Origin: Verrucomicrobiota bacterium
GTDB lineage: Bacteria > Auribacterota > JABMQX01 > JAFGEW01
Assembly (NCBI GenBank): GCA_016931415.1
Contig: JAFGEW010000087.1
Span: forward strand, 1-38,626
Reading direction: 5' to 3'
Length of the DNA: 38,626 nucleotides
Part shown: positions 16,994-23,044 of the stretch, in pieces
Layout: each line of letters opens with the position of its first letter
Position numbering within the stretch: the first letter of the stretch is position 1
Program-made: the position numbers and the translations under genes
The notes under the pieces: generated by a model
The model's input: the letters and a program-made list of their open reading frames with translations, nothing else
Database searches by the model: none
Told to the model about the DNA's origin: nothing

Positions 16994-18073
16994 ATGAAAG
17001 TCGGCCTGGTTGGCTTGCCGAACTCGGGCAAGACCACCGTTTTCAACCTGCTCACCGGCCAGCAACTCGCCGTCGAGCCGTACTTCACCGAGGAGCATAC
17101 CGTCCATCTGGGCACGGCCCACGTGCCCGATGCGCGGGTTGATTTCCTCCACACGTTTCACCCGCGCGCCAAACGCACCTACGCCGAGGTGGTGTTTGTT
17201 GATATGGCCGGCGTGCCCGTCGGCGGCGCCGGCCACGGCTCGAAGGCCCAGCTCTTCTCGTGCGTGCGCGATACCGAGGCCCTCGTCTACGTCGTCGGCG
17301 CGTTTGACAACGAGAGCGTCCTGCGCCCGTTCGACACCGTTGATCCCGTGCGCGATATCGAGACGCTTGACCTCGAGCTCATGCTGGCTGACCTCGAGAT
17401 CATCGACAAGCGCATCGAGCGCATCCACAAAGAGCTTCAGGCCTTCAAGGACAAGTACTCGCCCGAGCTCGACGTCCTTGTGCGCTGCAAAGCGGCGATC
17501 GAGGCCGAACGGCCCATCCGCCGTCTCGGCCTGAGCGCCGATGAGGCCAAGCTGCTGGGCGGCTTTCGGTTCCTCTCGGAGAAACCGTCGGTGGTGCTGC
17601 TCAACACGGGCGAGAGCGACGCCGGGCGTCCCGTGCCCGAGGCCGTTGCGGCCGCGTGCGCCGGTCGTGACTTGCCGGTCTTCGCCATGAGCGCCAAGAT
17701 CGAGGGCGAGATCACCGGGTTGCCCGACGACGAGCAACGCGCCTTTCTCGACGAGCTGGGCATCGCGGAATCCGGCCTCCCCAAGTTCGTACATGCCGTC
17801 TACAGCGCCCTGGGTTTGCGCACGTTCCTGACCATGGGCGACACCGACGTGCGGGCCTGGACCGTGTCGAAGGGTGCAACCGCCCTCGAAGCGGCCGGCA
17901 AGATCCACACCGACATCGCCCGTGGCTTCATCCGTGCCGAGGTCACTGCCTTCGAGGACATCAAAGCCGCCGGCAGCCCCAAAACCGCCAAGGAAGCCGG
18001 CCACCTCCGCCTTGAAGGCAAGGAGTACGTTGTCCGCGATGGCGACGTGATCCTCTTCCGCTTCAGCGTGTAG
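16994..18073 (+). CDS. ychF: YchF/OLA1-family ATPase (Obg-related)
   Basis: 359 residues. YchF binds ribosomes and hydrolyses ATP; in E. coli it is linked to the oxidative stress response. The P-loop is GLPNSGKTT, slightly off the common GLPNVGKST. VVFVDMAGVPVGGAGHGSKA is the switch II region. The base-recognition motif is NTGE (VVLLNTGESDAG), the NxxE form that explains ATP preference. A coiled-coil insert (residues about 125-160) and the TGS/DUF933 domain (about 275-359; RAWTVSKGATALEAAGKIH, VRDGDVILFRFSV) complete the protein. Its last 42 bases are repeated at 19931-19972, so the present 3' end with a TAG stop may have been supplied by an inserted cassette. Confidence 0.95.
   Translation: MKVGLVGLPNSGKTTVFNLLTGQQLAVEPYFTEEHTVHLGTAHVPDARVDFLHTFHPRAKRTYAEVVFVDMAGVPVGGAGHGSKAQLFSCVRDTEALVYVVGAFDNESVLRPFDTVDPVRDIETLDLELMLADLEIIDKRIERIHKELQAFKDKYSPELDVLVRCKAAIEAERPIRRLGLSADEAKLLGGFRFLSEKPSVVLLNTGESDAGRPVPEAVAAACAGRDLPVFAMSAKIEGEITGLPDDEQRAFLDELGIAESGLPKFVHAVYSALGLRTFLTMGDTDVRAWTVSKGATALEAAGKIHTDIARGFIRAEVTAFEDIKAAGSPKTAKEAGHLRLEGKEYVVRDGDVILFRFSV
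18030..18071 (+). repeat. Left copy of a 42-base direct repeat (ychF 3' end)
   Basis: Perfectly identical to 19931-19972. It encodes the last residues of YchF (VRDGDVILFRFSV); the base after the shared block gives TAG here and TGA at the distal copy. It has the position and form of an attachment site. Confidence 0.85.
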
Positions 18074-18080
18074 GAGGAAC

Positions 18081-18109
18081 TTGACACGGGTCGCGTCGTT
18101 CTAGATAGT
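18081..18109 (+). promoter_or_regulatory. Promoter of the three-gene cassette
   Basis: A perfect TTGACA (18081-18086), 17 bases, then GATAGT (18104-18109, four of six consensus). It lies 10 bases inside the left repeat, so the cassette carries its own promoter. Confidence 0.5.
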
Positions 18110-18165
18110 GGCTTCATATCTTGAGGGATCAGCTAACCTCTTGCATCTCGCCCGTAGGAGGAGAC

Positions 18166-19008
18166 ATGGCCATCAGACCCACCCCTCGGCCCGGCGGCAG
18201 AGGGCGTTTGCCTGAATACAGAAGACCGCCGGTCAATGAGGTGGTTCTCGGGGTTCAGTTTGGCGAGCTGACGGATTTCCAGACGGTGCACTCAGGGCTG
18301 TACTGGCAGACGATCAGGGCGCAGTACCCCAAGCTGCAGGAAAGAGCGCCGCTGAGTACAGCGTTCGAGTTCTTCGGGGACCCAGTGAGGTTGGAGCACG
18401 GGGTCCATGTCGAGCAAGTGCCGCCTCTCAGGAGGTGCTGGTTCCTTGACGAATCTGAGAACCGTCTAGTCCAGCTTCAGCCCGAGCGGTTCCTCCACAA
18501 CTGGCGCAAGGTTACCGGAGAGGAGGAGTATCCCCGATACAGCAGTATCAAGAAGAGCTTCGAGCAGCTTTGGCAAGGATTCCTGGGCTTCGTGCAGACG
18601 AACGAGATCGGCAAGATAGCGCCGAACCAGTGGGAAGTCACCTACGTCAACCACGTCTATCGCGGCGAAGGCTGGGATACGCTGGCAGATCTCTCCGATA
18701 TCCTTGCATGCTGGTCGGGCGCCTCCTCCGCGGGATACTTGCCGACGCCGGAGACGAACGCGGTTGCCCTCTCGTATGCGTTTCCCGAGCAACACGGACG
18801 GTTGCACGTGCATCTGGACCTTCGCTTTCAGAGGCCGGGCAACAAGAAGCTCCTGCGTCTGGAGTTGACAGCACGAGGCAAACTTGATTCGGACGACCCC
18901 AGTGATCTCCATCGCTGTCTGGATGTGGGACATGAGTGGATTGTCTGGGGCTTCACAGACCTGACGACCGGGAAAGCGCACAAACTGTGGGGACGGTGTG
19001 ATGTCTGA
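18166..19008 (+). CDS. TIGR04255-family protein
   Basis: 280 residues from ATG 18166, set by AGGAGGAGA immediately upstream. It matches the sporadically distributed TIGR04255 family, whose function is unknown. Marks are RRPPVNEVVLGVQF near residue 20, a Leu/Gln/Arg core (VQLQPERFLHNWRK) near 105, EEYPRYSSIKKSFEQLWQGF and the later EVTYVNHVYRGEGW. The C-terminal half (YAFPEQHGRLHVHLDLRF to LELTARGKL) looks like a second beta sheet, suggesting a two-lobed fold. No signal peptide, helix pair or catalytic motif is seen, so it is cytosolic. It overlaps the next gene by 8 bases. TIGR04255 genes often sit in variable regions of genomes. Confidence 0.75.
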   Translation: MAIRPTPRPGGRGRLPEYRRPPVNEVVLGVQFGELTDFQTVHSGLYWQTIRAQYPKLQERAPLSTAFEFFGDPVRLEHGVHVEQVPPLRRCWFLDESENRLVQLQPERFLHNWRKVTGEEEYPRYSSIKKSFEQLWQGFLGFVQTNEIGKIAPNQWEVTYVNHVYRGEGWDTLADLSDILACWSGASSAGYLPTPETNAVALSYAFPEQHGRLHVHLDLRFQRPGNKKLLRLELTARGKLDSDDPSDLHRCLDVGHEWIVWGFTDLTTGKAHKLWGRCDV

Positions 19009-19525
19009 CGCACTACGCCATTCCAACGGCAGACTCCTGGACGACCGAACGACTGTTCCGGTTGGCGAGGAGGCTCTTAATGAGAAACCTCTCTTCCAGA
19101 GGTGCGGCCCCACTTACGAGGCGGGGACCTTGGTTCTGGTTCCTACCTGGGGCCCGGAATGGTTCGCGTCTGCTCTCGACGGTATCTGGCGAGTCGCGTC
19201 GTTGCGGTCGGACTGGGACGGCGAGGGAAGCCCTCCTCCGTCGCCCGTCGCAGTCGGAACTGCCGTGCGCCTCCTCCAGGGCCTCGTGCATTACGATCTT
19301 CCCTCTCCGTTTGTCTGTCCTCTGAGAGAGGGTGGCCTACAGATCGAGTGGCAGCGTTACGGCAGAGAACTGGAGGTCGAGTTCTGGGATGCGGAGGAGG
19401 TCGGGTACCTGAAGGTGCGTGTGGATGGCTCGACAGAGGAGGGGCAATGCCCCGCTTTCGACCTGCACACGTTTCGAGAGCTCGCGGAGTGGCTGAACGA
19501 GGAGTCTGATCCCGGCAATCCCTGA
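19001..19525 (+). CDS. Small uncharacterised protein with a WDGEG and EGGLQIEW pattern
   Basis: 174 residues. ATG 19001 lies inside the end of the TIGR04255 gene, with GGGGAC just upstream; a GTG at 18998 is directly before it. Residues about 60-150 carry a pattern I know from many unnamed small proteins: LRSDWDGEGSPPPSPVAVGT (a trp-asp-gly block followed by an Ala-rich helix), then PFVCPLREGGLQIEWQRYG and LEVEFWDAEE. The first 55 residues have no recognisable content. It is likely a cytosolic alpha/beta protein. Overlapping translation with the TIGR04255 gene suggests a shared complex or pathway. Function unknown. Confidence 0.65.
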   Translation: MSDALRHSNGRLLDDRTTVPVGEEALNEKPLFQRCGPTYEAGTLVLVPTWGPEWFASALDGIWRVASLRSDWDGEGSPPPSPVAVGTAVRLLQGLVHYDLPSPFVCPLREGGLQIEWQRYGRELEVEFWDAEEVGYLKVRVDGSTEEGQCPAFDLHTFRELAEWLNEESDPGNP

Positions 19526-19536
19526 GCTGTAGTTGC

Positions 19537-19920
19537 ATGGCCAAAGAGGGACTCTCGGTCGAAAGCAGGCCTCCCGTTCGAGAGGACGAGGAGCTATGGG
19601 TCGGCGTCCTGCCGCAGTTCGTCAAGTCCAATCCGGACGGCACGCATCGGCCCTCTTCGGCAACATTCAAGAGCAGAACGCGTCACATATCGGTCTTTCT
19701 TGCCTCGAAGACGACCCCGCAGGAGTGCATGTCGAGGAACCCGACCTGGGTTGGCTTGGCGGCGATTCACGTAGCTCTCCCCAGGGAGCTTGGCTACGAG
19801 GTCGTGGAAGATCCGCTTCCTGGCAATCCCGCCCACGCTGAGATTCTTGGTCCAATCACTAAGAAGGCGCATGCCAAGAGGATGGCAAGAGAGGCGAAGT
19901 GGATCGTTGAGCCGCATTGA
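19537..19920 (+). CDS. Small uncharacterised protein with an RPSSATFK and NPAHAEI pattern
   Basis: 127 residues, 11 bases after the previous stop. HRPSSATFKSRTRHISVFLA and VEDPLPGNPAHAEILGPIT resemble conserved blocks of an unnamed family of small proteins that I associate with the WDG-type protein encoded just before it; this is recall, not a search. The conserved Ser/His/Asn residues could bind a ligand but no catalytic triad is evident. It ends 10 bases before the right 42-base repeat, so it is the last gene of the cassette. No clear ribosome binding site is seen before the ATG. Confidence 0.65.
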   Translation: MAKEGLSVESRPPVREDEELWVGVLPQFVKSNPDGTHRPSSATFKSRTRHISVFLASKTTPQECMSRNPTWVGLAAIHVALPRELGYEVVEDPLPGNPAHAEILGPITKKAHAKRMAREAKWIVEPH

Positions 19921-19930
19921 TCGCGTCATT

Positions 19931-19972
19931 TTGTCCGCGATGGCGACGTGATCCTCTTCCGCTTCAGCGTGT
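19931..19972 (+). repeat. Right copy of the 42-base direct repeat
   Basis: Identical to the ychF 3' end at 18030-18071 but not attached to any gene; followed by TGA in the same frame. This would be the ancestral ychF end if a cassette entered between the two copies. Confidence 0.85.
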
Positions 19973-20099
19973 GAACGTGCTCGTTGGCCCGGTCGGCCGC
20001 CCCTGCGGTGGGTCAAGAAAGCGTGCGCATCGGCCTGAAGGTCTATGCTAGATGTGACCCGCTTGGGACATCCAGGCACTTGCGGGGAGGCGGCGTCTC

Positions 20100-21182
20100 G
20101 TGATTCGCGCGGTCGAACACGCCATGCAGAAGTACTGGGGCTACGACCGGTTTATGCCCCTGCAGCGGCAGGCGATCGAGTGTGCCGTGAACCGCCGCGA
20201 CTCGATTGTCGTGCTGCCGACGGGGGCGGGAAGTCGCTCTGCTTTCAGGCGCCGGCAGCGGCGATGGACGGGGTTGCCGTTGTCGTCTCGCCGCTCATCT
20301 CGCTGATGAAGGACCAGGTCGATGCGCTCGCCGAGTGCGGCGTTCCCGCCGCGCGCATTGACAGCTCGCTGGCGCCGGCGGAGCGCGACGCGGCGTACCG
20401 CCAGATGCGCGCGGGACGCCTCAAGCTCGTCTACGTGGCGCCCGAGCGGCTCGTTTCGGAGCGGTTTGTGGAGATCCTGCGAGACGTGAAGCTCTCGTTT
20501 ATCGCTGTGGACGAGGCGCACTGCGTCAGCCTGTGGGGCCACGACTTCCGCCCCGAGTACCGCGAGCTGGGTGTGCTCAAGGAGCTGTTCCCGAATACGG
20601 CCATCCACGCCTACACGGCCACGGCGACCGAGCAGGTCCGTTGCGATATTGCCGAGCAGTTGCGGCTCGGATCGCCCGAGGTGCTCGTCGGCTCATTCGA
20701 CCGGCCGAACCTCGTCTACAAGGTCGAGCGGCGCGCCAACATGGCCAAGCAGGTCTGCGCCATTCTTGACCGGCACAAGGGCGAGTCGGGCATCATCTAC
20801 TGCATTCGGCGTGCCGATGTGGATGCGCTGTGTGCCGGGCTGATGGGGCTCGGCTACAAGGTGGCCCCCTATCACGCGGGCATGACCGACGAGGACCGCA
20901 AGGCGAACCAGGAGGCGTTCATCACAGAGCGGGTCGACACGATCGTTGCGACGATCGCGTTCGGCATGGGCATCGACAAGTCGAACGTGCGCTACGTCAT
21001 CCACGCCGGCATGCCCAAGTCGCTCGAACACTACCATCAGGAGACCGGCCGGGCAGGCCGCGACGGGCTCGAGGCCGAATGCACGCTGCTCTACACGGGC
21101 GCCGACTTCACGACGTGGTCGAGAATCCTTCAGCACATGGAGCCCGAGCCGATGGAGGTCGCGCAGCGCAAGCTCAGAGATA
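20100..21182 (+). pseudogene. recQ: ATP-dependent DNA helicase RecQ, 5' part, frameshifted and cut by IS630
   Basis: RecQ unwinds DNA 3' to 5' at recombination and repair sites. GTG 20100 follows GGGGAGG; the protein starts MIRAVEHAMQKYWGYDRFMP with the Q motif (LQRQAIE). The Walker A motif is broken: VLPTGAGS is read where VLPTGGGKS is expected, because the G-run at 20222-20226 is one base short. In the next frame the helicase continues normally with GGGKSLCFQAP, DEAHCVSLWGHDFRPEY, YTATATEQVR and YHQETGRAGRDG. The frame then ends at an IS630 inserted after codon GAT (KLRD); it resumes at 22319. Confidence 0.92.
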
Positions 21183-21208
21183 CTACCGGGAGCAGTATTC
21201 ATTGAACA
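21183..21208 (+). repeat. Left terminal inverted repeat of the IS630 element
   Basis: Begins CTACCGGGAGCAGTATT. The opposite end begins CTACTCCGAGCATTATT when reverse-complemented; 13 of these 17 bases match. Confidence 0.75.
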
Positions 21209-21211
21209 CTT

Positions 21212-22261
21212 TCAGATAGCCGCGTAGCGGACATCTTCCTGATGAAAGAAGCGTTGAACCACTTCGGGTTGTTTCTGTGTGCTGCGCAGATACGAGCGCA
21301 CCCCGGCCATCATTTCCTGCTGGTCGTGTGGCCGGTGGCGGCCCACGGCATTGCTCTTGACGTCCTGGTTGAGCCCCGCCTTGGCGGGGTCGGGGTTGAG
21401 TCTCGGGCTGTAGCCCGGCAGGTAGAAGAGCCGGAGCTGCTCGGCGTTCTGGGCGAGCCACCGCTCGACGGCCCTCGAGCGGTGCACGGGATGCCGATCG
21501 ACGATCAGGAACACCTTGCGGCCGACCTGCCGAACCAGGCGTCGCAGAAACGCGACGAACACCGGCGCGGTGAACCGGTGCCGGAACACCATGAACGACA
21601 GTCGTCCACGGTTGGTGATGGCCGAAATCATGTTACAGCCAAACCGCTGGCCGCTGCCCGCGATCACGGGCGTTTTGCCTCGACGCCCGTAGCTGGTGCC
21701 GACCTGATGATCGCTGCGCAGGCCCATCTCGTCGCCCCAATGGATCTCGGCCTTCTCGACCTTGGCGCGGCGCCGAATGCGCGGGTACTCCTCGTTGAGC
21801 CATCGCTTCACGGCGGCCGAGTCTTGCTCGTAGGCCCGGCGCACCGGTTTCTGCGGTGTAAAGCCCCAGGCTTGCAGGTAGCGGCCCACCGTCCAAACCG
21901 AGATCTCAATGCCGAAACGGCGGGCGATCAGCTCCTGCACGGCCTCGCGGGTCCACAAGGCGAACGGCAGCCGGAGTTGGTCCGGGCAGCGGTTCTCGAT
22001 CAGGCGAACCACCGTGGCCGCCTGATGGCCAGCCAAGCGCGAGTGCCGCTTGGGCCCGCGCTTGCGCGCCTTGAGCGCCGCGGCGCCGCCGCGTTCGACC
22101 GCGCGCAGCCAGTTGTGGATGGCCCCGCGGCTGACGCCGAAGACACGGACCGCCTCGACCTGACTCATGCCTTGATCCCGAATAGCGCGCACCACCTGCC
22201 GGCGCAGGTGTTCCTGGGCCGCGGGTGCCAAACGACGAGCATCGAATCGTGTGTTATCCAT
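21212..22261 (-). CDS. IS630-family transposase, probably inactive
   Basis: 349 residues. N-terminal helix-turn-helix (about residues 20-60; MSQVEAVRVFGVSRGAIHNW), then a second, winged DNA-binding part and the DDE domain. The first two acids are visible, D177 in IHWGDEMGL and D255 in FLIVDRHPVHRS. The third should be the E of a YSPELNPDE-type motif; here the sequence is YSPRLNPDPAKAGLNQDVKS, so position 292 is proline and about three residues are added. The DNA shows a CCCCGCC-AA-GGCGGGG hairpin at 21374-21389 in that place. The frame is otherwise intact. No strong ribosome binding site; the ATG is 56 bases from the right end of the element. Confidence 0.92.
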   Translation of the reverse strand: MDNTRFDARRLAPAAQEHLRRQVVRAIRDQGMSQVEAVRVFGVSRGAIHNWLRAVERGGAAALKARKRGPKRHSRLAGHQAATVVRLIENRCPDQLRLPFALWTREAVQELIARRFGIEISVWTVGRYLQAWGFTPQKPVRRAYEQDSAAVKRWLNEEYPRIRRRAKVEKAEIHWGDEMGLRSDHQVGTSYGRRGKTPVIAGSGQRFGCNMISAITNRGRLSFMVFRHRFTAPVFVAFLRRLVRQVGRKVFLIVDRHPVHRSRAVERWLAQNAEQLRLFYLPGYSPRLNPDPAKAGLNQDVKSNAVGRHRPHDQQEMMAGVRSYLRSTQKQPEVVQRFFHQEDVRYAAI

Positions 22262-22291
22262 ACCACGTCATATACACGGCGCCCCGACAAA

Positions 22292-22317
22292 TGTCAAGTA
22301 AATAATGCTCGGAGTAG
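22292..22317 (-). repeat. Right terminal inverted repeat of the IS630 element
   Basis: Inverted partner of 21183-21208, imperfect. It is followed by the duplicated TA and recQ sequence. Confidence 0.75.
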
Positions 22318-22318
22318 T

Positions 22319-23044
22319 ATGTACGACTTCTGCCAGGGTGTCACGTGCCGCCACCGGGCCATCCTCGAGTACTTCGGGCAGTCGTCGAGCACGGCCATCT
22401 GCGCTGCATGCGACGTGTGCCTTGGCGGACTCGAATGCCTGCCTGCGGCCGAGAGCCTGCCCATCGCCCAGAAGATCCTCTCCTGCGTTGTGCGGCTCGA
22501 GGGCCGGTTCGGCGCCGACTACACCGCCTCAGTCTTGGCCGGCTCACGTGAGGGCCGTGTTCTTGCCTACGGCCACGACACACTGAGCACGTACGGGCTC
22601 CTGAAAAACTACGGCAAGCGCCTCGTGCGAGACTGGATCGAGCAACTCGTCGCGCAGGCCCTCTTGCGGAAGGTGGGCGAGTACAACACGCTCGAGGTGA
22701 CGGGCGACGGCAAGCGGGTGCTCATAGGCAAGGCCGTTCCGCGCCTGCTCCCCTCGCAGCGCAAGCAGCCGCCCGCGAAGCTCTCCAAGGCGGCGAAGGA
22801 TTCGTGGGAGGGTGTGGACGAAGAGCTGTTCAGCGCGCTGCGGCAGTTGCGGCGCGAGCTGGCTATCGAAAAGAAGGTGCCGGCTTACGTCATCTTCAGC
22901 GACGCCGCATTGCGCGACATGGCGAGGCGCAAGCCGACCACCCTCGATGCCTTCCTCGAAGTCAGCGGTGTCGGCGAGAAGAAGCGAAGCCAGTATGGCG
23001 CAGCCTTTACCGCTCTGATCCGCGACCATATCGCCTCCGCCTAG
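22319..23044 (+). pseudogene. recQ: RecQ, 3' part (zinc-binding, RQC and HRDC domains)
   Basis: 241 codons continuing the helicase after the IS630. MYDFCQGVTCRHRAILEYFG and ICAACDVC supply the four zinc cysteines. The winged-helix RQC domain covers roughly the middle (YGLLKNYGKRLVRDWIEQLV). A complete HRDC domain closes the protein (LRQLRRELAIEKKVPAYVIF, LEVSGVGEKKRSQYG). Both parts together make about 602 residues, the normal RecQ length, so nothing but the two lesions is missing. It may still be translated from the ATG at 22319 but would lack the motor domain. Confidence 0.92.

Follow-up and report, generated by a model that had tools for sequence, protein, structure and literature searches.

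The window, by which we mean the whole 38,626-nucleotide stretch of DNA that was analysed, carries three small genes (P1, P2 and P3; Table 1) that lie together in a tight operon whose composition is foreign, and the same trio exists beyond the host genome. In our preferred reading, which we hold tentatively, the trio would be a conflict module of three genes that was acquired horizontally and that acts most probably against phages, in an abortive or toxin-type manner. What the evidence establishes is the module itself, the fact that it is mobile and its link to conflict genes.

Table 1. Features of the inserted cassette and its target gene (positions are those of the window)
Feature	Position	Strand	Basis or remark
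ychF (redox-regulated ATPase YchF), target gene with duplicated 3' end	16994..18073	+	TIGR00092, E 4.5e-84
Direct repeat copy 1: ychF end, 41 coding nt and the T of the stop	18030..18071	+	42/42 identical to copy 2
Insert of about 1.86 kb enclosed by the repeats, without an integrase ORF	18072..19930		ORFs, GC, codon use
Promoter-like TTGACA-17-GATAGT, inside cassette	18081..18109	+	10/12 matches, weak
P1, TIGR04255 family protein, 280 aa	18166..19008	+	NCBIfam
P2, 174 aa	19001..19525	+	ATG start at 19001; GTG at 18998 is an alternative start
P3, 127 aa	19537..19920	+	PDC-M32B homologue
Direct repeat copy 2: fragment of the ychF 3' end, reading in frame into TGA	19931..19972	+	42/42 identical to copy 1

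The three genes are co-directed, with an 8-base overlap between P1 and P2 and an 11-base gap between P2 and P3, as a first-pass annotation of this DNA had described. That annotation had also assigned P1 to the TIGR04255 family and pointed out a WDGEG/EGGLQIEW pattern in P2 and an RPSSATFK/NPAHAEI pattern in P3, all of which we find. Its claim of foreign codon use agrees with the GC3 of the trio (0.70-0.73 versus 0.85-0.92) and with the mean codon cost (1.10-1.16 versus 0.71-0.84), both compared with correctly framed neighbours only, the 'CBS1' gene being left out; the GC content is about 0.60 in the trio and 0.65 in the surroundings. The claim that the trio has its own promoter stands in part: a promoter-like site does lie within the insert, and one such site was found where 0.4 would be expected in shuffled sequence, so that the support is weak. 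The neighbours of the trio are housekeeping genes only, with no defence gene adjoining it in the window. The IS-damaged DNA said to lie beside the trio is there as well: the recQ-like gene downstream of the insert (20045-23044) has a frameshift near the Walker motif and is split by a transposase-like ORF on the minus strand (21212-22261) that, from a reading of its sequence, is probably of the IS630 type.

The flanking direct repeats had been noticed before; what had been missed is that copy 1 is the very end of ychF. In each copy the reading frame closes at the same point, with TAG ahead of the cassette and TGA behind it. Markov resamples of the window gave exact repeats of 21 nt at most, against the 42 nt observed, which rules out a chance origin, and the 42-mer has just two copies in the 4.06-Mb genome, which rules out a dispersed element. 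We infer the route of insertion from this arrangement: a cassette with its own promoter would have inserted at the extreme 3' end of ychF, restored the gene and left a copy of the gene end on the far side. Duplication of a gene's 3' end with the reading frame restored is typical of gene-end attachment sites, and the duplicated gene end on both sides of the insert resembles what tyrosine-integrase elements leave at gene 3' ends. However, the window insert differs from such elements in that its ORF list holds no integrase or recombinase gene. As an account of the insertion only, the cassette could be an ordinary genomic-island remnant, in which an integrase-bearing element at ychF was later stripped of all else, leaving the attachment sites with three cargo genes in between. 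The duplication and the restored frame fit this account, which we consider quite possible, if somewhat short of an even chance. Against it, gene-derived repeats enclose the trio alone at four trio loci (inserts of 1.9-2.8 kb), with an integrase in none of them, and the two tyrosine recombinases of the host genome are both on contigs other than that of the window.

The architecture of an insertion at a gene 3' end recurs in a viral contig (L089). Here, the 3' part of a phage gene is present on both sides of the trio as 137-nt copies that end one codon before the stop; 135 of the 137 positions are identical, and by reading, both differences look synonymous. The source gene appears by eye to be of the NlpC/P60 type, with no match in Pfam, and searches found neither a named phage carrying the P1 of this contig nor an empty site. 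At a second locus (G233), the trio is flanked by 139 nt duplicated from the 5' part of a gene, and one of the copies lies at the contig edge. A third (G231) has a 137-nt copy, 87% identical, on either side of the trio; this case is weak, and the repeat may instead represent a decayed paralogue. When the loci collected by that stage were surveyed, exact repeats of at least 20 nt at a distance of 1-4 kb occurred around these trios only, apart from small dispersed repeats in one locus (L086). Repeats were present at four of 14 trio loci and at none of about 54 other loci (p = 0.001, or 0.007 without G231). Two trios added after the survey have no repeats that match adjacent gene ends, and the repeats near the G288 and G048 trios do not match them either.

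The trio is not a peculiarity of close relatives, an explanation that is ruled out by loci in at least five phyla. Fifteen complete P1-P2-P3 operons have the same order, and one more (G255) has a broken P3. In addition to the window, they include a Mycobacterium paragordonae plasmid (L036), a Phycisphaera metagenome-assembled genome (L041), further genome loci (G288, G352, G231, G048, G130, G385, G437 and two copies in G233) and three viral contigs, where the trio is amid tail genes (L089), adjoins a tyrosine recombinase (L090) or adjoins terminase-like genes (L091); among the second G233 copy, G048 and G130, P2 or P1 is weak or partial in some. The phyla are that of the window, Actinomycetota, Planctomycetota and, since G288 and G231 fall there, two further small phyla. 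In the first ten trios, the spacing is -23 to +2 bases between P1 and P2 and -4 to +40 between P2 and P3, except in G233, where one overlap of P2 and P3 is longer and varies with the start chosen. Among 365 genomes, P3 is encoded in 11, and eight of these have TIGR04255 as well, where 1.2 would be expected (p = 1.7e-6), and with the host genome excluded the count is seven of ten (p = 1.1e-5). The two genes are adjacent in seven of the eight, the exception being G307. These counts, together with the spread over phyla and viral contigs, bear out the expectation that the families would be neighbours beyond this genome and its close relatives, and the earlier placing of the two small proteins in variable genome regions holds. 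The eight early P2 proteins, aligned together, were too diverse for the scan of the genome collection, and a narrower P2 alignment gave five loci; single-protein scans of viral contigs using several P3 proteins gave no matches.

Searches of Pfam and PHROGs, as well as a sequence search of solved structures, returned nothing useful for any of the three proteins, and P2 and P3 have no match in NCBIfam either. P2 does match the PADLOC model PDC-M32A (E 1.6e-9), only at profile positions 266-364 of 375, and so it is not a full-length M32A protein, which has about 375 aa. P3 matches the PDC-M32B set in a profile-profile comparison (1.2e-9), whereas hmmscan against the M32B models gave no match at E <= 1. 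In P2-P3, a domain like the M32A C terminus is followed directly, after 11 nt, by an M32B homologue. Therefore, the trio is not wholly new: P2-P3 would be a variant of the PDC-M32 pair, itself a candidate for phage defence in PADLOC. Because P2 and P3 are homologues of that candidate pair, the first-pass description of the system as undescribed was only partly right. P2-P3 dyads without P1 are present in Latescibacterota, Gemmatimonadota and viral contigs, and so P1 is inessential to the core. One viral contig (L038, 5917-6393) has a solitary P2 homologue, without P3, among phage structural genes; this P2 could be a lone partner or a counter-acting protein. On the Hymenobacter plasmid pHA (L033, 4983-5309), a P3 homologue without an annotated gene adjoins a HipA-type toxin pair.

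The PDC-M32 pair is found between hsdM and hsdS in two genomes. The order in the first (L130, G123:C34, 1-8506) is hsdM, M32A, M32B, hsdS, CAP12/Pycsar TIR and hsdR, and in the second (L145, G428:C195, 595-5807) it is hsdM, a truncated M32A, M32B and copies of hsdS, the hsd genes there being recognised by eye. This placement is a lead for a restriction-tied effector. In Hymenobacter monticola, BrxE and DUF262 proteins are near a DUF4209-P2-P3 locus, and an AbiEii protein is near the Phycisphaera trio.

The match of P1 to TIGR04255 (E 8.7e-16, 58.5 bits with a cut-off of 30) covers profile positions 2-252 of 252; thus, P1 is a full-length member of the family, as are the P1 proteins of six other trios tested. 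TIGR04255 has no assigned function, and no paper naming the family was found in the literature searched. The order of secondary structure elements in the P1 model (pLDDT 77.7) matches a duplicated TBP domain (beta-alpha-beta4-alpha, in tandem), and the top seven PDB matches are TBPs, a weak result with low TM values of 0.22-0.40 with five sequences. The model weakly predicts a tandem TBP-like/helix-grip fold. Only about nine of the 48 family loci in the sample are of this trio type, and the remaining ones pair TIGR04255 with HEPN, PIN, DUF7689 or unknown proteins. For example, two loci (L054, 2235-3139, and L057, 2232-3070) have TIGR04255 followed by an unnamed protein of 158-173 aa and a HEPN-type protein, confirmed by Pfam for L054 only; by sequence, they would represent a second recurrent type of TIGR04255 trio. 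In two others (L058 and L060), TIGR04255 forms an operon with a DUF7689 protein, for which L058 alone has Pfam confirmation.

The model of P3 is better (pLDDT 91.2). Five PDB matches have probabilities of 0.54-0.98, namely HopF2/AvrPphF and several KptA/Tpt1 structures, and the others are negligible; the viral library also yields a baculovirus RNA 2'-phosphotransferase. We take the HopF2/AvrPphF and KptA/Tpt1 structures to belong to the ADP-ribosyltransferase superfamily. The fold matches are weak in themselves (E 0.019-0.32, TM 0.39-0.51, identity 7-12%), and the predicted ADP-ribosyltransferase/KptA-like fold is a weak but consistent result. Among 21 aligned members, S52 is conserved in 21, H100 in 20 and an Arg in beta-1 in 17. 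The family thus has R-S-H rather than the R-S-E or H-Y-E triad of the superfamily, and it lacks the catalytic Glu, as read from the alignment. The P3 of the window lacks even the Arg, which is replaced by V22, and therefore this copy may be attenuated. The KptA/Tpt1-type matches would also fit a complex for nucleic-acid modification or repair, with a KptA-like P3 and a TBP-like P1, that phages carry for counter-defence or superinfection exclusion, and the trios near tail, integrase and terminase genes on viral contigs favour it. However, most loci are in genomes and fewer in viral contigs, and PDC-M32 is inside restriction operons, so we consider this explanation decidedly improbable.

Some of the same observations would be expected of a toxin-antitoxin or addiction module, with P3 as toxin, P2 as antitoxin and P1 as regulator, that is kept by post-segregational killing and not by phage defence. 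The genes are small, compact and translationally coupled, plasmids and viral contigs carry them, and TIGR04255 genes adjoin HEPN and PIN domain proteins elsewhere. Broken P3 or P2 parts (G255, G307 and G223) and the loss of the Arg in the window point the same way. Nevertheless, the recurrent three-gene order and the nesting of PDC-M32 in type I restriction operons point to defence, and we regard an addiction module as rather unlikely.

The preferred reading, an anti-phage conflict module, draws on several lines of evidence. They are the order, conserved in 15 loci with overlapping or near-adjacent genes, the co-occurrence of TIGR04255 with P3, the PDC-M32A/B homology, the hsd, CAP12/Pycsar TIR, BrxE/DUF262, HEPN and AbiEii context, and the HEPN or PIN partners of TIGR04255 elsewhere. 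To these are added the five P3 fold matches above negligible probability, all of them to the ADP-ribosyltransferase superfamily, the conservation of Ser, His and Arg, and the recurrence of the insertion architecture in L089. We infer the following roles. The core would be the P2-P3 pair. As the likely effector, P3 would be a minimal enzyme of the ADP-ribosyltransferase/KptA fold and would modify a cellular target through its Arg-Ser-His site, and P2 would bind P3 and restrain or present it. P1, as a TBP-like saddle protein, would be the recognition subunit that senses invader nucleic acid and releases P3. The weak fold matches, the missing ART Glu and the missing Arg of the window copy, the lack of defence neighbours in the window and the dyads without P1 all count against this explanation. 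One could go further and propose that TIGR04255-P2-P3 is a new class of defence, in which a TBP-like sensor and a minimal ART-like R-S-H effector travel in bacteria and phages as a very small cassette without an integrase, which inserts where genes end (3') by duplicating that end; we think it quite unlikely that all of this is correct.

These results join TIGR04255, a family to which no function is assigned, with two small uncharacterised proteins in a single module that is open to testing. They also tie the module to a defence candidate that is listed yet unproven, and they propose an effector fold together with residues suited to mutation. If confirmed, repeated integrase-free insertion at gene 3' ends would indicate how very small defence cassettes travel between chromosomes and phages.

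Several known systems resemble the trio in part. The PrrC anticodon nuclease is reported as a translation-stopping effector that is genetically linked to a type I restriction enzyme (PMC2610378). The PDC-M32A/B genes within hsd operons in two genomes are analogous to that description in linkage, whereas the window trio is outside any type I restriction operon. On Hymenobacter plasmids, as in the window, the P2 and P3 homologues are directly downstream of a first gene, but there the first protein is DUF4209, an RNase-like protein of a HEPN family (PMC3710099) with an RNxVAH motif, in place of TIGR04255. Other unrecognised first proteins precede P2-P3 at two more loci (L129, 4092-5983, and L040, 4799-6809), which are further swaps of the first subunit. 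Another such system is PDC-M32: P2 resembles M32A over the C-terminal third of the latter, P3 and M32B are homologues and the gene order is the same. The window trio differs in having no counterpart of the N-terminal two thirds of M32A and in having a separate TIGR04255 protein ahead of P2. M32A can be described as P2 fused to another N-terminal domain, and it is the place of this domain that TIGR04255 takes in the trio.
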